Origin: Paenibacillus sp. BIC5C1
Lineage (GTDB): Bacteria; Bacillota; Bacilli; Paenibacillales; Paenibacillaceae
Direction: 5' to 3'
DNA: 64,000 nucleotides
NCBI RefSeq assembly: GCF_032399705.1
Contig: NZ_CP135922.1
Coordinates: forward strand, 372,001 to 436,000
A model generated the notes under the pieces. That model was given only the letters and a program-made list of their open reading frames with translations. It was not told the origin of the DNA and searched no databases. Below are positions 7,499-50,271 of the stretch, piece after piece. How positions within the stretch are numbered: the first letter of the stretch is position 1; every line of letters starts with the position of its first letter. A program made the position numbers and the translations under genes.

Positions 7499-9196
7499 AT
7501 GAGTAAGCCAAAAGAGATATACGCGTTGAAGCTGACACAGATGACCCTGCGTGAGAAAATTGGACAAATGCTGCTTTGCGGCTTTCATGGCACCGAGGCT
7601 GCCGGGGAAGTGGACGCTTTTCTGCGAAAGTATCCCATTGGCGGCGTAATCTATTTTGCGCGCAACGTCGAGTCGCCGGAGCAGGTGGAGCGGCTATCAT
7701 CAGGGCTGCAACGGATTGCTGTCGATAGCGGAAATGTGCCGCTTTGGATATCCATTGATCAGGAGGGTGGCATGGTGGCCCGGATTACCGAAGGGATCGC
7801 CCTGATGCCGGGACAGATGGCAATTGCGGCAGCAGGTTCCATCGAGGATGCATACCAGGCAGCCTATATCAGTGGGGTGGAGCTGAGATCCATGGGAATT
7901 AACATGAACTTTGCTCCGGTCCTGGATGTAAACAACAACGCTGCCAACCCGGTAATCGGTGTGCGTTCATTTGGGGAATCACCGCAGTCCGTGGCAGCGT
8001 ATGGGGTCAGGAGCATTGCGGGAGTCCAAGATGCTGACATTTCAGCGACAGCCAAACATTTCCCGGGACACGGGGATACGGATACCGATTCACATCTGGA
8101 TCTTCCGGTTATCCCCCATGATCGGGAACGGGTAGAGCGTGTGGAGCTGATTCCGTTCCGTGCTGCCATAGCGGCAGGTGTCGATGCAATGATGTCGGCA
8201 CATATTTATTTTCCGGCTCTGGAACCGGAGCGTCTGCCTGTGACACTATCGCGAGCCGTGTTAAGTGGATTGCTTCGTCAGGAGCTAGGGTATGATGGCA
8301 TGATTGTAACGGATTGTATGGAGATGGACGCAATTGCTGCCAACTATGGCACTGTCGATGCAGCTGTGATGGCGGTAGAGGCCGGCGCAGATCTGGTGTT
8401 GATCAGCCACACAGCTCATCTTCAGGCAGGGGCGTTTGAAGCGCTGCTGGCAGCCGTACAGAGCGGGCGAATCAGCGAGGCCCGCATTGACGAATCTGTA
8501 ACTCGGTTGCTGAAGTACAAGGCCAAACGAGGCCTACTCGAGAATGGAATGGACACTGGTGATGATGAAGTAAACGGTGCTGTGTCGACTTCACTCTCCG
8601 CTGAGGTAACCGATTCAGCTTCATCAAAGCGCCAAGAGCGTAATCAACTGTTACACCAAGAGGTGGCCCGCCGAATCAGTGAGAACAGCATCACGCTGGT
8701 GCGTGATCAACTCAACATGCTGCCTTTGAAGCCAGAACGTACATTGGTCATAACCGTTGCTACATCTGTGACAACAATTGCCGACGAACAGCTGACTCAG
8801 GCGGCTACTCTAGGTTCGGCTTTGTCGCACTGCGGTCTGGATGTGGTCGAGGTAACAGTCACGCCAGAGGAGGTTGCCATTCGTTCTGCCCGTCTGCTTC
8901 AAGCTGCCGAAGAGGATGACGTTCGCCAGATTGTGGTGGGGACTTATAATGCAGGCAGTGCCTCTGGTGATCCACAGTGCAGGTTGATCGGCTGGCTGCA
9001 GCAATTGGGCAAGCCGCTCGCTGTTGTGGCGCTCCGCAGTCCCTATGATCTGCTTGCGATCCCGGAGGTACAGGTGTATGTGGCTGCGTATGAGAGCAGG
9101 TCGCTTGCCATGGATAGCGCCGCTCGGGCGCTAATGGGGCATATTCCTTTTGCCGGGAAACTTCCTGTATCCCTTAAGGGGACAGGCGTTAAATGA
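7499..9196 (+). CDS. nagZ: Beta-N-acetylglucosaminidase NagZ (glycoside hydrolase family 3)
   Basis: The start at 7499 follows GGGGAGGAGG; a 22-residue longer frame exists but lacks a ribosome site. The N-terminal TIM barrel carries the NagZ signature KHFPGHGDTDTDSH (about residues 184-197), with the His/Asp acid-base dyad, and the nucleophile Asp in IVTDCMEMDAI (about residue 271). A C-terminal alpha/beta domain of about 170 residues follows, as in the two-domain Gram-positive enzymes. Family knowledge: removes terminal GlcNAc from GlcNAc-MurNAc(-peptide). With NamZ it would convert cell-wall fragments to monosaccharides for the kinase at the left edge. No signal peptide is seen, suggesting cytoplasmic action after import. 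Confidence 0.9.
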   Translation: MSKPKEIYALKLTQMTLREKIGQMLLCGFHGTEAAGEVDAFLRKYPIGGVIYFARNVESPEQVERLSSGLQRIAVDSGNVPLWISIDQEGGMVARITEGIALMPGQMAIAAAGSIEDAYQAAYISGVELRSMGINMNFAPVLDVNNNAANPVIGVRSFGESPQSVAAYGVRSIAGVQDADISATAKHFPGHGDTDTDSHLDLPVIPHDRERVERVELIPFRAAIAAGVDAMMSAHIYFPALEPERLPVTLSRAVLSGLLRQELGYDGMIVTDCMEMDAIAANYGTVDAAVMAVEAGADLVLISHTAHLQAGAFEALLAAVQSGRISEARIDESVTRLLKYKAKRGLLENGMDTGDDEVNGAVSTSLSAEVTDSASSKRQERNQLLHQEVARRISENSITLVRDQLNMLPLKPERTLVITVATSVTTIADEQLTQAATLGSALSHCGLDVVEVTVTPEEVAIRSARLLQAAEEDDVRQIVVGTYNAGSASGDPQCRLIGWLQQLGKPLAVVALRSPYDLLAIPEVQVYVAAYESRSLAMDSAARALMGHIPFAGKLPVSLKGTGVK

Positions 9197-9243
9197 CGAA
9201 CGAAGCGAAAATATATTAATCCGGATTATGAAGACCGATATAG

Positions 9244-9285
9244 CAGAAGGGACGATCCAGTTAATGGACCGTCCCTTCTGTTATT
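9244..9285 (+). terminator. Rho-independent terminator of the importer-namZ-nagZ operon
   Basis: A 15-base stem with one mismatch (CAGAAGGGACG-TCC paired with GGA-CGTCCCTTCTG, loop AGTTAAT) is followed by TTATTTCT. It lies between nagZ and the convergent hydrolase gene and could act on both strands. Confidence 0.8.
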
Positions 9286-9305
9286 TCTGATAGATTAATG
9301 CATAA

Positions 9306-10739
9306 TTATTGCAAATTCAGTGCCTGAGCTGTCTTAGCCTCGACTTCATCCATAAGCGAAGTCATATCCATACCCGCATGATTACCGAGCAGAATAATGG
9401 TAACATCATCTGATAAATTGCGTGAAAAGGCTGTGGAGAAACCACCGCCGCTACCGTTATGGAAGACGATACGATTCTGATCGTTTTCCTTGAGAATCCA
9501 GGCGTAGCCATAATTTTTATCCGAATATGGCTCATACATCTGTTCAATCGTATCCTGGCTCAGAATTTTGTCCGTGTACAATGCCCGATCCCACTTTAGC
9601 AGATCGTCCAGGGTAGAGTAGATCGTCCCTGAACCTGATTGTGAAACATAATAAGGGGCAGTCACCCACTGTTTACTCTCCGCAACGAATCCGCTATTTG
9701 TATGGACCTTGCGGGAAGCTTCTCCGGAGTTCTTCATGCCGAGCGGCTTCAGGATGGTCTGTTGCACATAATCGGCATAACTCATGCCAGAAACCTGTTC
9801 AATAACATAGGCCAGCAGAACATAACCGCTATTACTGTACAAATAGGCACTACCCGGTTCAAATTTCAATGTTTTGTGCCGGATTTCCTCGACTGTTTCT
9901 TCCAATGAAGTGCCCTCACCCCGGCCAAAGGCGGATGGAAGACCTGAAGTCTGGGATAACAGCATATGAAGCGTGATCTGATCTCCCTTTGGTATACCGG
10001 AGATGTACTTGGATATTGGATCTTGCACATCGAGCTTTCCTTTTTCCACCAAGCTGAGAATGGAGGCTGCGGTGAAGGATTTGCTCAGAGAAGCAATTCT
10101 GGTCTTCTGATCCGGACGATTCAGCGTCTGTTCATCCGCAAGTCCGTAGCCTTGGCGAAGCAGGACCTTTCCATTGCGGGCAATCAGAGCCATACCGGGA
10201 AAATTAATTTCGCGCAAATAGCTGTCTACACTGGTGACTTGACTATTTAATAGGCTTACTTTGTCCGTCTCGATATTAACACTCATCTGCCCTGAGGCTG
10301 TACGTTGTACTTTGATATCCGCCTTGAGTGCATTGGCAAGCGCACGCACAGGTAACATCAGGGTGCCATTGATGGTGCGGGATTGCACACCGGAGGACAG
10401 GCGAACCTGATTAACCTGGATGAAGTCACTGCCAGCCTGATGAACCAGCTTGTCTCGACCAACGGTAATTGTAGCTGTTTTGGTACGAGCTTCCCACTTC
10501 AAGGTGCCATTTACAGAGGTAACAACATCTCGCAATGGAACATACGTTGTACCTTTGTATACAAGGGGAGCATTTTTCCACGATTGCTCTTGACCATTTA
10601 CTTCAATGTGAACTGTTTGCGCCTCTTGTGCTGCAGATGCCGTGAAACTGGCTTGTCCCATAATGGGGCCTGCACAAAGAATGAGGGCTAACAGAATACG
10701 GAACATAGATGAATATAATCTGGTAACAGGTTGTTGCAC
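9306..10739 (-). CDS. Secreted serine hydrolase (class C beta-lactamase/penicillin-binding fold) with copper-amine-oxidase-N-like domain
   Basis: About 477 residues. A signal peptide is followed by a copper amine oxidase N-terminal-like domain (about 45-155, with YVPLRDVV and MLPVRALANAL) and a beta-lactamase-fold domain (165-475). The nucleophile motif is SLSK (Ser217-Lys220), the second motif YSN in YLYSNSGY and the third HNGSGGG instead of KTG. The family includes esterases, D-aminopeptidases and carboxypeptidases, so antibiotic resistance should not be assumed. The start is uncertain: the GTG at 10739 has its AAGGAGAGG box about 24 bases upstream, and ATG at 10706 would still leave a complete signal peptide. 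Confidence 0.85.
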   Translation of the reverse strand: MQQPVTRLYSSMFRILLALILCAGPIMGQASFTASAAQEAQTVHIEVNGQEQSWKNAPLVYKGTTYVPLRDVVTSVNGTLKWEARTKTATITVGRDKLVHQAGSDFIQVNQVRLSSGVQSRTINGTLMLPVRALANALKADIKVQRTASGQMSVNIETDKVSLLNSQVTSVDSYLREINFPGMALIARNGKVLLRQGYGLADEQTLNRPDQKTRIASLSKSFTAASILSLVEKGKLDVQDPISKYISGIPKGDQITLHMLLSQTSGLPSAFGRGEGTSLEETVEEIRHKTLKFEPGSAYLYSNSGYVLLAYVIEQVSGMSYADYVQQTILKPLGMKNSGEASRKVHTNSGFVAESKQWVTAPYYVSQSGSGTIYSTLDDLLKWDRALYTDKILSQDTIEQMYEPYSDKNYGYAWILKENDQNRIVFHNGSGGGFSTAFSRNLSDDVTIILLGNHAGMDMTSLMDEVEAKTAQALNLQ

Positions 10740-10970
10740 ATTTGACTTGCGTAAGATTCGAATCCTCTCCTTCCAGTCGTTTCATGGATAACCAGCTTAT
10801 GAGATATTGTAAACGATCTCGAAGAGGGGGTCAAAACGGGGAATGAGCAACATTTTCTATTATCCTAACAAAAATAATGTAATTTCGATTCATTTTAGTA
10901 TCCATACATAATATTTTTACTACGTTTGTCCGATAAAAGAGGGGTGAAGATGATGATGGGGGATATTTAA

Positions 10971-12944
10971 ATGAAGAAAAGGATTCGTAATTGGCTTACA
11001 TTAACGGTTAAGAAACGTCTGATCGCTTCGTTGCTCTTGTTCCTGATTGTACCGAGCATTAGCGTGGGATGGTTGTCTTATTTAAAAGCAGCAGACCAGG
11101 TCAGGGAAGAAATCATTCATTCTGCACAGGCCAAAACGGAAATGCTCAGTTTGCAGATTACTCAAATGCTGGATATGGAGAAGGATAACGCAGCACAGTT
11201 TGCAGCGGGTATTACTTCAACAGATATTATCAATAAATCACCAGCTGTTCAGAGACAAATGGATCGTATGTCCAAGGCTCACAAAGAATTGGGTGTAATA
11301 ACAGTAGGTGCTGAAGATGGCAGCTGGATGAAATCACCTGATCCCGGACAGCAGATCTATGATCCACGGGAACGCAGCTGGTATACGATGGGCATGTCAC
11401 AGAATGAACCAATTATCTCGGATACGTTCCAGTCGGTAACCACGGGTGAATGGGTTGTCACCGCCGCTGCCAAGCTGGCAGATGGTAAAGGGGTAATTGG
11501 AGCCAATGTAAGCCTCAATCATTTGAAAGAATCCGTCGATAAGATACATATTGGTGAAAAGGGAAAACTGTATATGCTGGATAACGGCGGGAAGTTCCTG
11601 TTCCATTACAATATCGAATCCGGTGTGCAGTCCAATGAGAGCTACATTAATGAGATGTATACAAAAGAACAAGGAACTGTAAAGTACACGTATGATGGAC
11701 AAGAATTGGAAGCCGTATTCTATACGAATCCCGAAACAGGCTGGAAAATTGTCGGTGAGATGGTTCCTTCTGAAGCAGCAGATGCGGTAAGACCGATCTT
11801 GATTCGTGCCTATACTCTGGTAGGGACCTCGTTGATCATTGGTATTATTCTGCTTGTGTTCATTATTCGCAGTATTCATCGTCCATTGTTGCAACTAACG
11901 CAAGCAGCATCCAAAGTAAGCGCGGGTGATCTGACAGTTCGTGTAGGTTTACAGCGCCGTGACGAGTTTGGACAACTCGGGGCAAGTTTCGATACCATGA
12001 CCTCATCGCTACGTAACGTTCTGGGCGAAGTACATGATACATCGAGCCAACTGGCAGCATCCTCTGAGGAGCTGATGGCGAGTTCTGAACAGACATCCAG
12101 AGCGACGGAACAGGTTGCCGAATTGATGCAGGATGCAGCGTCAGGAACGAACAAACAAAACGCCAGTCTTGCTGCAACGGGTCAACTCGTCGGTGAAATG
12201 TCCATAGGTGTCAAAGAAATCTCATCGAGTGCCGAAGACACGGCTCGGATTGCTGTAGAGGCATCTTCCAAGTCCGAAGCGGGTATGATTACGGTGGAAG
12301 AGGCGGTTGCTCATATTCAGAAGGTGAATAATGAGAGTGAGGCCATGGCTGTGGTCATTCAGGATCTTCGAGCGAAAAATGAAGAGATTGTTGAGATTGT
12401 GGCTGAGATCACCAACATCGCTAAACAGACCAATATCCTTGCCTTGAACGCATCCATTGAAGCTTCAAGAGCAGGTGAACAAGGTCGAGGCTTTGCTGTC
12501 GTGGCCAATGAAGTAAAATCGCTAGCCAACAATTCGGGCAGTGCTGCCGAACGTATTAATGAACTTATGCGTGAGATGCAAGAGAAAACAAATGCGGTAC
12601 AGTCTACCTTTGCCCTTACAGGAGAAGGCATGATTAAAGGTACGCAAATGATTACGGAGGCGGGAGAGGCCTTCAAAAATATCCGTAGTGCTGTACAGTT
12701 GGTTGCTGCACAAGCTGGAGAAGTGTCGGCAGCTTCCCGTCAGATTGATGGAGGCATGAGTCATGTGTCCAAGGAAGTGAACGCCACCATTGAATTATCC
12801 AATCAGATTGCTTCAGGAACCGAGGATGGTTCAGCTGCTGCTCAGGAGCAGCTCGCTACAATGGAAGAGGTTGCAGCTTCTTCTGCGGCATTGTCCCGAA
12901 TGGCTGAAGATCTGCAAAGCATGATTGAGAAATTCAAGTTATAG
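10971..12944 (+). CDS. Methyl-accepting chemotaxis protein with extracellular Cache sensor
   Basis: A 657-residue chemoreceptor. It has a membrane segment near residues 17-37, an extracellular dCache-type sensor (about 40-275, with DPRERSWY and TGEWVVTAA motifs), a second span (about 280-300), a HAMP linker (about 300-355) and a long coiled-coil signalling domain. The conserved hairpin tip reads [16 protein letters not shown](S)[12 protein letters not shown], which binds CheA/CheW. The Cache architecture suggests direct sensing of a small organic ligand such as an amino acid or carboxylate. It is a single-gene unit, with an AT-rich promoter region at 10850-10930 and its own terminator. Confidence 0.95.
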
Positions 12945-45791: not shown

Positions 45792-45826
45792 TTGACCGCT
45801 GTAAAATTTAGGATTAAAATTGTACA
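45792..45826 (+). promoter_or_regulatory. Promoter and dyad of the first peptide-regulator gene
   Basis: TTGACC (45792-45797), a 17-base spacer and TAAAAT (45815-45820). A dyad TGTAAAATT...AATTGTACA (45800-45826, one mismatch) spans the spacer and -10. Almost the same sequence precedes the second paralog (47434-47462), so it is probably a conserved, self-controlled promoter. Confidence 0.7.
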
Positions 45827-45874: not shown

Positions 45875-47260
45875 ATGGAACCTACAACTACGATACGCTC
45901 CTTTATTGAGGACTACATCAGGAAACAGGGCTATACCCTGCAATACTTTGCCGATATATCGGGTGTGAACGCTGGAACGTTAAGTGCGATCATCAAAGGG
46001 ACGCGGCCAATCGCCATGGCTCAACTGGATCTGATTACCCAAGGCATGAAGCTGGAAGAGGGGCATTTCTACGAAATTTACGGCGCTGAGTGTTTTGTGG
46101 AGTCTGCACCGCATTGGAGGAGACTGGAACCTTTTCTGCAACGTTGCGCCGAGCTGGACAAGCTCGAATGTATTCAGAGGGTAATCCAGCAAGTGACGGA
46201 TGATCGATCCTATATTTCCGAATTGTTCGAGATGGCAGAAGGCATGCTTGAGCGAGGACAAAAGAAAGCGGCCCGCATGTTATATGAATGCGTTGCAGAG
46301 TGTGAGAAGTACCAACACTCGGAACGTCTCGCGTTGTGCCAGTATCGTATTTTCACATTATCTCTGGGTCAGGATCAGCATGAAAATCTCAGGGCGGCCG
46401 TGCACTTCGAGCCATATATTAATCGGCTGGATGAAGAGCGGCAACTGGATGCGATCAAGGATCTGGCGAATACATATTTGGCTTTGAGATATTGGGACAA
46501 GTTATTTTCCCTTTCTGATGAGTTGGATCAGAAAACGAAAATTTTACAATCGTATACAAAGAAAATAACGGATAAAAGTAATCGATTAACCGCTTATCCC
46601 TTATTTGTATATAGAGCATATTCAAATTTACTTAAATCCTCCGCATGTGAGAGGCAAGGAAAATATGCAGAGGCACTACATTATACAGAGATCTATGGAG
46701 ATCTCATGAAAATTTCTGAACCTGATGAGGAAGATCAGATCTATATTGATAAATTTGCAGGATGGACAGAAGCAAATACCTATCTGTACAGGCTGATGAT
46801 GGGTGACTTAAATATCTTGCCAGCTTATATTAATTTCATTGAAAATAACGAAACTGAACTTTTGCCAGCAATGATTAATATTTTAGAAGCTGCTAATAAA
46901 TTCGATAATAATATCGATGACATCCTTTACATGTATAACGCCCGAATTAATTCAGAAATCACTCAATTAAAGGGTTACACTGAACAGGTCAATTCGGATA
47001 TGTATATCACATTTTTACTTGAACGGACAATTTATCACCTCAATCGTAAACAATATACTGAGGGATTCAAGCAACTGGTCTATTGTCTGAAAGAATCTGT
47101 AAAGCTAAACAATCAAACTGATATTATTCGCTGTGTGGCGTTATATGAAAAATATAGGAATATAGCTACTGCGGATATTGAATATCAGTATAAATTAATA
47201 ATAATGGAGGTACAGAATTATTATGATAAAAAAGAGAATCCTATATTTAATCTTGCTTAG
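45875..47260 (+). CDS. Helix-turn-helix/TPR-like regulator, RRNPP type, paralog 1
   Basis: 461 residues from ATG 8 bases after GGAGG. An XRE-type helix-turn-helix occupies residues ~1-70 (YTLQYFADISGVNAGTLSAI). The rest is all helical, with repeat-like pairs (HSERLALCQYRIF, LDAIKDLANTYLALRYWDK, YRAYSNLLKSSACERQGKY) as in TPR peptide receptors (Rap, PlcR, NprR, AimR and the Paenibacillus Alo group). A pre-pro-peptide gene overlaps its last 38 bases in another frame, matching receptor/peptide pairs. Composition changes from about 50% GC in the first half to about one-third GC after ~46500. The regulated genes are unknown; the Spo0E-like genes downstream are candidates. Confidence 0.8.
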   Translation: MEPTTTIRSFIEDYIRKQGYTLQYFADISGVNAGTLSAIIKGTRPIAMAQLDLITQGMKLEEGHFYEIYGAECFVESAPHWRRLEPFLQRCAELDKLECIQRVIQQVTDDRSYISELFEMAEGMLERGQKKAARMLYECVAECEKYQHSERLALCQYRIFTLSLGQDQHENLRAAVHFEPYINRLDEERQLDAIKDLANTYLALRYWDKLFSLSDELDQKTKILQSYTKKITDKSNRLTAYPLFVYRAYSNLLKSSACERQGKYAEALHYTEIYGDLMKISEPDEEDQIYIDKFAGWTEANTYLYRLMMGDLNILPAYINFIENNETELLPAMINILEAANKFDNNIDDILYMYNARINSEITQLKGYTEQVNSDMYITFLLERTIYHLNRKQYTEGFKQLVYCLKESVKLNNQTDIIRCVALYEKYRNIATADIEYQYKLIIMEVQNYYDKKENPIFNLA

Positions 47261-47354
47261 TTTTATTCTTATAAATGTTGGTCAATTAGGTTCATATAAT
47301 AATTGGTTTCCTATTGAAACACTTCTTACTGTACATGGTGGTGGAGGATTGTAG
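47223..47354 (+). CDS. Pre-pro signalling peptide (Phr/PapR/AloP-like), 43 residues
   Basis: A 43-residue frame starting at ATG 47223 and ending TAG 47352-47354. It has a basic N terminus (MIKKR), a hydrophobic core (ILYLILLSFILINVG) typical of a secretion signal, and a polar C-terminal part ending TVHGGGGL. GGAGG lies 12 bases upstream, inside the regulator gene, and the frame overlaps the regulator 3' end by 38 bases, the layout of phr genes. A terminator follows 28 bases later. A secreted pro-peptide processed to a short C-terminal signal, re-imported by an oligopeptide permease and bound by the upstream regulator, is inferred. Gly-rich HG-containing ends recall AloP-type peptides, from memory only. 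Confidence 0.7.
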   Translation: MIKKRILYLILLSFILINVGQLGSYNNWFPIETLLTVHGGGGL

Positions 47355-47382
47355 TAACCAAGCAATGAGGTTGATATATTTT

Positions 47383-47418
47383 AAAAGGTTTATTTCCGTA
47401 ATCGGAAGTAAACCTTTT
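47383..47418 (+). terminator. Terminator of the regulator/peptide operon
   Basis: AAAAGGTTTATTTCCG pairs with CGGAAGTAAACCTTTT (one mismatch) around TAAT, followed by GTAATTTT. Confidence 0.85.
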
Positions 47419-47433
47419 GTAATTTTGCGCACA

Positions 47434-47462
47434 TTGACCATTGTAAAATTCAGGATTAAAAA
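47434..47462 (+). promoter_or_regulatory. Promoter of the second peptide-regulator gene
   Basis: TTGACC, a 17-base spacer containing TGTAAAATT, and TAAAAA. It matches the promoter of paralog 1 almost base for base, including the TGTAAAATT half-site. Confidence 0.65.
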
Positions 47463-47520
47463 TACATTTATTAAGAACTGATGAATCCTTAAGTTAGTTT
47501 GGTTGATGGGGGTGGGAGAA

Positions 47521-48906
47521 TTGAAACTTGCACCTACGATACGCACATATATAGAGAATCACATAAGAGAAAGAGGATATAAACTACAGCAATTCTCAGA
47601 TGTCACGGGTGTCAACGGTGGTACATTAAGTGCCATCCTCAAGGGCAGCAGATCTCTAGCTATGAATCAGTTGGATCAAATTACATCTGGTATGGGGTTG
47701 GAGAAGGGATACTTCTACGAAATGTACGGTGTGGAATGTTTTGTTGAGGCCGCACCTCATTGGAGGCGTTTGGAACCGTTCCTGTATCGCTGCGCTGAAC
47801 TTAACAAGCTAGGCTGTATTAAAAAGGTAGTCTATCAGGTAACAGATGATCGATCCTATATTTCAGAACTGTTTGAAATGGCAGAAAATCTGTATTCCAA
47901 AGAAATGAAGGAAGCGGCGCTTATTTTATATGAATGCGTAGCCGCAGGTGAGAAATATCAGCACTCGGAACGGTTGGCGTTATGCCAGTACCGTATTTTT
48001 TTGCTTCATAAAACAATGAGCAAATTCGATAATCTGGCAGCAGCGGTCCAATTGGAACCCTATATTGAGAAATTGGATGAAGAAATACAACTGGATGCTG
48101 TTAAAGATTTGGCGAATGTTTATAATACAATACATCATTGGGATAAGGTCTATGAATTGGCCGAAGAACTGGAACGAAAAGTTGATTTTCAACTTGAACT
48201 TCAATCTCGAAGACGTAAAAATAGAAAAAGAACCGCCTTTTACCCCATATTTACATATAAGGCATATGCGAATTTATTGAAGGCAAGTGTCTGTGAAGCG
48301 TGTAAGCAATATGAAAAAGCTCTGGAATATACAGATGTTTACGTGACTGTTATTGAAATCTCTAATCCAACAGAAGAAGAGCAAGAATTAATAGAACGTT
48401 TCAAAGGATGGGCGGAGGGAAATCGGTATTTATACCATTTGATGAATGGGAACCATGAGGTTATTGAACCTTATCTGAATTACCTGGAGGCTAATCCACA
48501 TGAGATTTTAATAGCATTCGTAAATATTGTGCAAGCAGCTAACCAGCACTCACTGGATATTGATTATGCCTTGGATAGATTCGATCCTTATATTAAACAA
48601 TTCAACACGGATATGCATTTAAAAGGGACGTACAATATGCAAATGTTGAATCATAGATATATACGTTTTTATTATGAATTAGCGAAGTACAGACTCAACC
48701 AACAAAGATACGCAACGGGGATTGACAAGTTACTCAAGAGCCTGGAGCTATCATCATCAAGTAACGATGACCTAATGTCTATTAAATCTATTGATTTGTA
48801 CGGGAAATTCAGAATGCATGTAACGAACCAGCAGGACGAGCAGTACACTGGGTTAATAGAGGGCCTGAGCTCACAACATTTTGGAATTAGAACTAAAAGT
48901 GTATAA
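47521..48906 (+). CDS. Helix-turn-helix/TPR-like regulator, RRNPP type, paralog 2
   Basis: About 461 residues. The TTG at 47521 is chosen because GGGGGTGGGAG lies at the same distance as in paralog 1 and alignment begins there; ATG 47506 is possible. The N-terminal half is highly similar to paralog 1 (FVEAAPHWRRLEPFLYRCAE, QVTDDRSYISELFEMAE, KYQHSERLALCQYRIF), while the C-terminal half, the presumed peptide-binding part, has diverged. No signal-peptide-like ORF overlaps or follows it. It may respond to the peptide of paralog 1, to another peptide, or be an orphan. The 3' half is AT-rich like that of paralog 1. Confidence 0.8.
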   Translation: MKLAPTIRTYIENHIRERGYKLQQFSDVTGVNGGTLSAILKGSRSLAMNQLDQITSGMGLEKGYFYEMYGVECFVEAAPHWRRLEPFLYRCAELNKLGCIKKVVYQVTDDRSYISELFEMAENLYSKEMKEAALILYECVAAGEKYQHSERLALCQYRIFLLHKTMSKFDNLAAAVQLEPYIEKLDEEIQLDAVKDLANVYNTIHHWDKVYELAEELERKVDFQLELQSRRRKNRKRTAFYPIFTYKAYANLLKASVCEACKQYEKALEYTDVYVTVIEISNPTEEEQELIERFKGWAEGNRYLYHLMNGNHEVIEPYLNYLEANPHEILIAFVNIVQAANQHSLDIDYALDRFDPYIKQFNTDMHLKGTYNMQMLNHRYIRFYYELAKYRLNQQRYATGIDKLLKSLELSSSSNDDLMSIKSIDLYGKFRMHVTNQQDEQYTGLIEGLSSQHFGIRTKSV

Positions 48907-49026
48907 TTACTGGGAGCTAATCTTGCTTGGCCACCTTTTCAAAAAGACCTAAAATTTTGCAAAGCATTACATTATGAATTTTTAGATAAATGCACCCTAA
49001 AATAGGTTGAAAAAGGGGTGCATGCT

Positions 49027-49185
49027 GTGAGAGAAATCAAGCAGATCAAAGATCAAATCGAGCAGAATCGGCAACATTTGCGTCGGTTGGTGGAGAAACA
49101 TGGCATGCATGATGATAAGGTCCTCAAGCAGTCTATGGTGCTGGATGAACTAATTAATAAATATATTCGACTAAGAGAGAAATAA
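49027..49185 (+). CDS. Spo0E-like aspartyl-phosphate phosphatase, copy 1
   Basis: 52 residues from GTG about 9 bases after AAAGGGG (an in-frame GTG at 49018 is also possible). The pattern of an N-terminal helix (IKQIKDQIEQNRQHLRRLV), a HGM turn and a second helix with SMVLDELINKY corresponds to the Spo0E family, whose signature SQELD is here SMVLD. Family knowledge: such proteins dephosphorylate Spo0A-P or related regulators and delay sporulation. Copy 2 at 50083 is about 60-65% identical and shares its leader sequence. It directly follows the peptide-regulator genes. Confidence 0.8.
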   Translation: MREIKQIKDQIEQNRQHLRRLVEKHGMHDDKVLKQSMVLDELINKYIRLREK

Positions 49186-49835: not shown

Positions 49836-50082
49836 TTTATAACGTGTTTCTGTCTTTTGCTTCTGGGTTAAGATTCTCTATTTTTTCGAGAGTTCGATAT
49901 GTAGCTGAATGTGAGGAATACACATCTATATATTGTAGTTGTGACAATTTTCACGGATTAATGCAAAATGTTGTGTTATGAAAGTATTCCTCTGTAAATA
50001 AACATTTTATTTTGCAAAGGAATAAAATATGAATTTTTTGGCAATGTATCCTAAAATGTTTTAAAAAGAGGGGGTGCATGCT

Positions 50083-50271
50083 GTGAGAGAACCGAAGCAG
50101 ATTAGAGACCAAATCGAACAGAACAGGCATGAGTTAAGTCGTTTGGCGGAATATCATGGCATGCAAGACTACAAAGTCCTTCAACAATCGATGGTATTAG
50201 ACGAGTTAATTAATGAATATAATCGCTTCAAATATAAAAAACACTTTATGAAAAGACAGCCGATTGCATAA
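50083..50271 (+). CDS. Spo0E-like aspartyl-phosphate phosphatase, copy 2
   Basis: 62 residues from GTG about 8 bases after GAGGGGG (GTG 50074 possible). It contains PKQIRDQIEQNRHELSRLAE, a HGM turn and SMVLDELINEY, the Spo0E-family two-helix hairpin. It has a longer basic tail (KYKKHFMKRQ) than copy 1. The ~85 bases upstream are also homologous to those of copy 1 (TTTTGCAAAG, ATGAATTTTT, CCTAAAAT, GGGGTGCATGCTGTGAGAGAA), showing that gene and promoter were duplicated together. Confidence 0.82.
   Translation: MREPKQIRDQIEQNRHELSRLAEYHGMQDYKVLQQSMVLDELINEYNRFKYKKHFMKRQPIA

Follow-up and report, generated by a model that had tools for sequence, protein, structure and literature searches.

In Paenibacillus, the sensor half of a peptide receptor seems to have been exchanged repeatedly among related strains together with the gene for its signal peptide, while the DNA-binding half of the receptor was kept. 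The locus lies in the window, that is, the entire 64,000-nucleotide stretch analyzed here (G000:C1:372001-436000 of a 7.08 Mb single-contig genome), and occupies a conserved position on the chromosome in the Paenibacillus pabuli/amylolyticus/taichungensis group. All 32 named loci with relatives of the receptor are titled Paenibacillus, and the receptor encoded at the P. taichungensis NC1 locus is 99.8% identical to that of the window. Taken as a whole, the best explanation, which we consider highly probable, is an AloR-AloP pair with inferred Spo0E-linked signaling, in which the sensor half and aloP have been exchanged repeatedly as a cassette. The pair family is already known, and what appears new is that the sensor half is swapped together with the pheromone gene while the DNA-binding half stays constant; this exchange, a second receptor and the adjacent Spo0E-like genes go beyond what the initial annotation had described.

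Receptor A, the AloR-type regulator (45875..47260, forward strand, as are all features of the window given below; 461 amino acids), was delineated from the ORF list, the Pfam HTH_3 match, homology and a predicted model, and its ATG at 45875 is preceded by GGAGGTGGGAG. The initial annotation had described this protein as an XRE helix-turn-helix (HTH) followed by an all-helical, repeat-like part. The HTH_3 match is above the curated cut-off (E = 8.6e-6), and the predicted model is a TPR-like superhelix with an HTH (mean pLDDT 86.8), for which the matches of a single VIA-align job include Rap, NprR and AimR, the receptor of the phage-borne AimR-AimP arbitrium system, interspersed with unrelated TPR proteins. 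NCBIfam assigned receptor A to no family, the PHROGs search yielded weak matches, mostly to transcriptional-regulator families, and the PDB sequence search with a receptor A profile recovered HTH proteins and chance matches alone, with neither AimR nor NprR. The AloR-AloP option, one of several raised initially, is borne out by homology: an alignment of 435 residues with the SHGRGG-linked receptor of G025 (P. polymyxa group) shows 35% identity (E = 4e-95). This reference stands in for AloR13 of ATCC 842 and was identified by the adjacent SHGRGG, a second receptor upstream and a Spo0E-like gene downstream.

The aloP-like pro-peptide gene (47223..47354; 43 codons; MIKKRILYLILLSFILINVGQLGSYNNWFPIETLLTVHGGGGL), delineated from the sequence and orthologue comparison, starts with an ATG at 47223 and ends with a stop at 47354, with the tail TVHGGGGL. 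The observation of an overlapping regulator and small ORF is confirmed, given that the receptor stop ends at 47260, so that 38 bases are shared in different frames. The GGAGG assigned to the small ORF is present at 47206-47210, 12 nt before the ATG, a rather long spacing, and the orthologues also have a similar purine-rich motif before the small ORF. The hydrophobic signal is indicated by a hydropathy maximum of 3.1 over 12 residues, and the terminator said to close the unit corresponds to a hairpin of 17 pairs 3' of aloP (47382..47419), albeit with a weak T tract. What did not hold is the notion that the peptide is too short for gene callers, as the database already lists it among the predicted proteins (3 members, 4 contigs). 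A protein-database search with AloP retrieved no match besides itself, probably because short divergent peptides have few exact words in common.

An ORF overlaps the receptor end in all 45 full-length receptor A orthologues, a set that is part of the receptor A genomes found and excludes the truncated G005 and G055 (coordinates of L031). Because the overlap is kept in 45 of 45 receptors that differ from that of the window by up to 38%, the small ORF is beyond chance. The C termini vary, as the initial annotation had proposed to check: the 45 loci contain 25 different heptapeptides, all of the form.HG.(G/A)... Across a broader set of 58 loci (with L076 repeating the contig of L028), 49 have an overlapping ORF with an HG-x-G tail, which in 45 of these 49 starts at -37 from the receptor stop. 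Of the nine others, four are P. polymyxa-group loci, where SHG-(M/L)-GGW is internal, three are receptor A orthologues in which the ORF ends in HGGAGL, and the last two are the broken L031 and L070, the latter without the motif. For the aloP codons outside the overlap, the median dN/dS is 0.33 among 26 pairs, which were chosen by 3-30% divergence, leave out the three HGGAGL loci and are non-independent (sequences recur). A frame-disrupted aloP was seen at one locus, L031 (6001-7553; Paenibacillus sp. OVF10), where receptor A is broken too; given that both frames are disrupted and the tail, HGTGGY, still resembles sensor class C2 (defined below), decay of the peptide gene seems to have accompanied that of the receptor.

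The small ORF might instead encode some other secreted or membrane peptide, toxin-like or bacteriocin-like, that is translationally coupled to the receptor without being its signal, and indeed, 43 residues with one hydrophobic helix fit many functions. We nevertheless consider this very unlikely, because the overlap is conserved, the HG-x-G tail is common to the AloP13 peptide SHGRGG, the receptor is homologous to the Alo family, and the small ORF co-varies with the sensor half of the receptor (see below). The reading of the locus as a candidate RRNPP quorum-sensing pair is supported. Two of the outcomes named initially as refuting it, loss or disruption of the small ORF in orthologous loci and lack of a TPR fold, were not borne out by the full-length orthologues and the predicted model, respectively.

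The pair is a further member of the published Alo family, that is, the AloR-AloP systems of Paenibacillaceae, including alo13-alo14 of P. polymyxa, with SHGRGG as the mature AloP13 peptide (Voichek 2020, PMC7425212). The locus combines an HTH, a TPR-like C-terminal domain in the predicted model, homology to AloR and a short downstream ORF, in a member of the Paenibacillaceae. Judging from the available text of the Alo study, it resembles AloR-AloP systems in the HTH-TPR receptor with an overlapping or adjacent pro-peptide of 32-50 amino acids, and alo13-alo14, in particular, in the HG-x-G motif, the adjoining peptide-less receptor and the downstream Spo0E-like gene (PMC7425212). If processing is as in AloP13 (PMC7425212), the predicted mature end of AloP is VHGGGGL or HGGGGL. 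The pair differs from alo13 in lying at a different locus, with 35% identity to the SHGRGG-linked receptor. A positional counterpart of alo13 was considered and rejected because the flanking genes differ, with presumably uvrB-like and motor-like ORFs involved. The closest P. polymyxa-group receptor (46%) is distinct from the SHGRGG-linked one, and its peptide has an internal SHGMGGW or SHGLGGW. At the P. polymyxa-group loci L066-L069, this internal HG-x-G of the AloP-like peptide is followed by about 9 residues, so that a second cut would be needed. Two matches to the SHGRGG pattern, L093 and L094, were dismissed as chance, given that they encode THGSGG and have no AloR-like receptor nearby.

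Within receptor A, conservation is partitioned between two halves. The frequency of the majority residue among the 45 orthologues, in 20-codon blocks, is 0.93-1.00 before codon 200 and 0.51-0.75 after it, and we denote codons 1-200 (45875..46474), encompassing the HTH and the first TPR-like helices, the fixed half. The drop near codon 200 reflects more than protein constraint because synonymous divergence jumps as well: in the comparison with locus L030, whose AloP ends in THGGAGL, the three blocks that cover codons 6-200 have dS values of 0.05, 0.13 and 0.10, but in the four blocks covering codons 201-448 the values run from 1.0 up to saturation, where dS is undefined. Identity profiles were obtained for the window against 17 loci. 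Nucleotide identity to L030 is 97% in the flanking gene, which we take to encode an LLM-type oxidoreductase and which is the same beside receptor A in 36 of the 45 loci, 98% in codons 1-200, 78% in codons 201-220, 54-62% in codons 221-448, 53% in aloP and 47% in the terminator stretch, and then recovers to 96% past the terminator (47431-47500). Given this fall after codon ~200 and return past the terminator, the sensor half and aloP can be regarded as a cassette, which we place at 46475..47422, from about codon 200-210 of receptor A through aloP and the terminator; these bounds rest on fitted breakpoints against L030, L014 and L064, together with the identity profile and synonymous divergence. 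The profiles against L027, L023, L019 and L014 are similar in shape, with 88-99% identity in the flanking gene and codons 1-180, 50-66% in codons 221-448, and recovery to 74-94% after the terminator. There is little or no fall against L006, L007 and L009, whose sensor halves are of the window's kind. Exchange within the species was not seen, as the same-species genome L005 is 99-100% identical throughout and has the same allele as the window.

Fitting three segments (a simple high-low-high model of identity) to nine pairs hand-picked as discordant placed the left breakpoint at codons 195-222 in all nine, a position that the predicted model puts close to the loop joining helix 187-203 to helix 207-228. 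The right breakpoint is 11-71 nt past the aloP stop in five of these pairs and about 1 kb or more further out in the other four, where receptor B differs or the fetched stretch ends. These alignments show the putative unit of exchange to span the receptor from about codon 200 onward together with aloP, with its limit directly beyond the terminator where the case is clearest, and show recombination between strains and species as its likely route, with the HTH half, promoter and flanking gene staying in place.

An ordinary AloR-AloP pair in which the sensor half evolves fast, under relaxed or positive selection and without recombination, is the alternative suggested by the divergence itself, a behavior to be expected of the sensing part of a signal receptor. 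Median dN divided by median dS is, indeed, 0.16-0.31 in the C-terminal part of the receptor (C-part) compared to 0.01-0.03 in the N-terminal part (N-part), when calculated by block with saturated pairs left out (84 to 679 of 990 per block). However, fast evolution fails to account for the jump of dS at codon ~200 in close pairs and for the recovery of identity to L030 past the terminator. Furthermore, it is at odds with the conflict, in the class trees and AU tests, between the N-part and flanking gene and the C-part, with the existence of pairs in which sensor halves are closer than N-parts, and with the lack of anything of such size in the second Alo system of this genome (see below for each). 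We therefore find this explanation highly improbable. The mirror pattern, with the likeness of the C-part exceeding that of the N-part by at least 5 points, occurs in 10 of the 990 pairs. An example is L057/L017, where the N-part is 82% identical (third positions, 53%) and the C-part 93% (third positions, 87%), the respective AloP tails being GHGAGVL and GHGAGAL.

The scale of the discordance is apparent from pairwise comparisons, in which pairs of loci are not independent. For receptor A, N-part identity reaches 0.95 or more in 64 pairs, and in 41 of these the C-parts are less than 60% identical in protein. The corresponding count is 0 of 13 for receptor B at an N-part threshold of at least 0.90, a weak control because one pair alone reaches 0.95, and 0 of 65 (N-part at least 0.95), or 0 of 210 overall, for the second Alo system. 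In some pairs of the second system with N-parts of at least 0.95, the nucleotide identity of the C-part is as low as 0.78, so that milder exchange is conceivable and may have occurred there as well.

The phylogenies of the parts of the locus conflict. We defined four sensor classes by single linkage at 55% identity (29, 10, 5 and 1 loci), of which class C1 is heterogeneous, with identities down to 41%. The C-part tree requires 3 changes of the sensor class, compared to 12 each for the N-part tree and the tree of the flanking gene, which serves as a stand-in for the species tree and is found in 36 of the 45 loci. The recurrence of this gene beside receptor A also favors a chromosomal location of the pair. 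In AU tests, both the N-part and the flanking gene reject trees that keep class C2 together (p-AU 1e-29 and 4e-58, respectively) or class C3 together (7e-4 and 6e-52). A nine-row N-part clade that includes the window is rejected by the C-part (5e-44), whereas the flanking gene does not reject it (0.44). These p-values are indicative at best because the groups were named after the trees were seen. The notion that the N-terminal half is the part that moves or is homogenized by gene conversion, with the sensor half inherited vertically, would likewise produce conflicting trees but is extremely unlikely, given that the N-part resembles the flanking gene, with the same 12 class changes on each tree, and that its nine-row clade is rejected by the C-part and not by the flanking gene.

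Exchange of the sensor half and aloP as a unit is also reflected in the peptides. Among the 45 loci, AloP distance correlates with the C-part distance (r = 0.84) but hardly with the N-part distance (r = 0.20; partial r = 0.04). This correlation is partly due to physical linkage, as adjacent, overlapping genes travel together anyway; linkage does not explain, however, why this locus has diversified and the second Alo system has not.

Downstream of the cassette lies receptor B (47503..48906, start possibly a TTG at 47521), a peptide-less (orphan) paralogue that is 51% identical to receptor A and has no overlapping small ORF like aloP. Receptors A and B form sister clades in a tree of 88 receptors, with 45 rows in A, all peptide-bearing, and 26 in B, all peptide-less; support is 100/99 for each clade and 100/97 for the two jointly (midpoint root; L091_5486p, L092_2977m and L070_3139p were labeled peptide-bearing by hand, and none of these belongs to the A or B clade). 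The simplest reading of this topology is a single duplication yielding A and B, with a single early loss of the peptide in B. Receptor B might respond to the signal of receptor A or to signals from elsewhere. The number of B copies varies from 0 to 3 per locus: L005, the closest relative of the window, keeps a partial match alone, and L007, L010 and L016 (about 7600-11800) carry up to three tandem peptide-less B receptors, of which the later copies are without the promoter element described next. Just 3' of receptor B in the window, CTAATCTTGCTTGG (48917-48930) resembles TTAATCTTGCTTAG of aloP and may be what is left of a former peptide gene, although it could be a chance similarity.

Receptor A is preceded by a promoter- or operator-like element (45792..45820), TTGACC-N17-TAAAAT with the conserved spacer TGTAAAATNNAGGAT, recognized by its conservation in the orthologues. 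A genome scan and comparison of upstream regions revealed the same element, with 1 mismatch, before receptor B (47434..47462), the part common to the promoters of A and first-copy B receptors being TTGACC-N2-TGTAAAAT-N2-AGGATTAAAAT. It is present with at most 1 mismatch in all 39 distinct upstream regions of receptor A orthologues and absent from 5 upstream regions of more distant receptors (L032-L036). Among the receptor B regions, 24 of 36 contain the element with at most 3 mismatches, and 7 of the other 12 belong to named second or third copies. In the entire 7.08 Mb genome, just two sites have at most 3 mismatches, those before receptors A and B, which makes the TTGACC element a candidate operator. 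A palindromic reading of the element, made by eye, was dropped because the right arm is not conserved. An operator common to the receptor and Spo0E promoters was likewise rejected: none of 41 Spo0E upstream regions contains the element within 7 mismatches, so that direct control of Spo0E gains no support from a common site.

Two Spo0E-like genes follow in the window, at 49018..49185 (Pfam PF09388, E = 9.3e-13) and 50074..50271 (PF09388, E = 3.9e-12). Within the fetched stretches, a Spo0E-like ORF lies downstream in 31 of the 33 intact A loci (including L076, which repeats L028), the exceptions being L015 and L020, of which the latter stretch ends 1.1 kb after the receptor; the same queries found none at L031-L036. 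Three of the six Spo0E-like genes of the genome adjoin Alo receptors. Rfam searches of the window gave nothing at or above gathering scores.

By analogy with alo13 and RRNPP biology, a mode of action can be proposed. The receptor and pro-peptide would be made from one message, and AloP would be exported via its N-terminal signal sequence and then cut. Its last 6-7 residues (HGGGGL or VHGGGGL) would be taken up again by the cell and bind to the receptor in its TPR-like C-terminal half, altering receptor activity at nearby promoters, by analogy with alo13 most likely those of the Spo0E-like genes. Cell density would thereby tune the phosphorylation of Spo0A. Under this scheme, cassette exchange would swap the pherotype, that is, the signal and the matching sensor, while keeping the regulon. 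We lean slightly towards the broader possibility of a modular language switch, in which a fixed transcription factor half and regulon, probably including Spo0E phosphatases, would be combined with interchangeable sensor and pheromone cassettes through homologous recombination, with diversity kept by selection (25 tail forms among 45 loci in one species group).

Comparable behavior is familiar from other signaling systems. In comQXPA of B. subtilis and agr of S. aureus, pherotype groups exist in which the signal and sensing part co-vary beside conserved parts, but the receptors are membrane histidine kinases and the peptides are modified or cyclic, whereas the receptor here is a cytoplasmic RRNPP-type transcription factor. 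Rap is a TPR protein without an HTH or DNA-binding domain, unlike receptor A, which has an HTH. As described in the available text of Even-Tov 2016 (PMC5199041), the Rap-Phr systems are strongly diversified, with whole-allele horizontal transfer and anciently fixed orphan receptors, and there is no evidence for Rap divergence through recombination of different Rap homologues. The present locus is similar to these systems in its diversified receptor-peptide pairs and orphan receptors and different in that intragenic recombination is its main feature (PMC5199041, same portion of text). If our interpretation is true, intragenic recombination within a receptor of the RRNPP type is how pherotypes are exchanged here, a mechanism for which Rap-Phr has offered no evidence. 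Exchange of a sensor half with the peptide gene is not described in the available text of PMC7425212 and was not found in the portions consulted of PMC10075063, PMC9765709 and PMC12700828, nor in titles and abstracts from a literature search (subscription papers being outside its scope). Should the proposed function hold, an intracellular RRNPP-type system would change its signal by swapping the sensor half and the pheromone gene together, which bears on the origins of kind discrimination and signal diversity and ties a diversifying signal to probable control of sporulation, via Spo0E, in soil- and plant-associated bacteria. The natural combinations of receptor halves and peptides, several of these in near-identical backgrounds, would also make the AloR peptide code directly readable.

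The genome contains further Alo-related sequences. The second Alo system (L088, G000:C1:6915790-6917154, reverse strand) consists of a receptor 42% identical to receptor A and a peptide ending in NDHGLGT, followed by a terminator-like hairpin (by eye), with a Spo0E-like gene directly downstream; its peptides have 3 tail forms in 21 loci, that of the window's own genome included. At L089 (G000:C1:6977419-6977880, reverse strand), a 181-residue ORF matches the middle of AloR alone (about 25%) and is adjoined on the opposite strand by an HTH-like ORF, and from these sequence features looks like a remnant of another AloR. Finally, the AloP spacer of the second system at L117 carries an in-frame duplication (ESPNPESPNPE).
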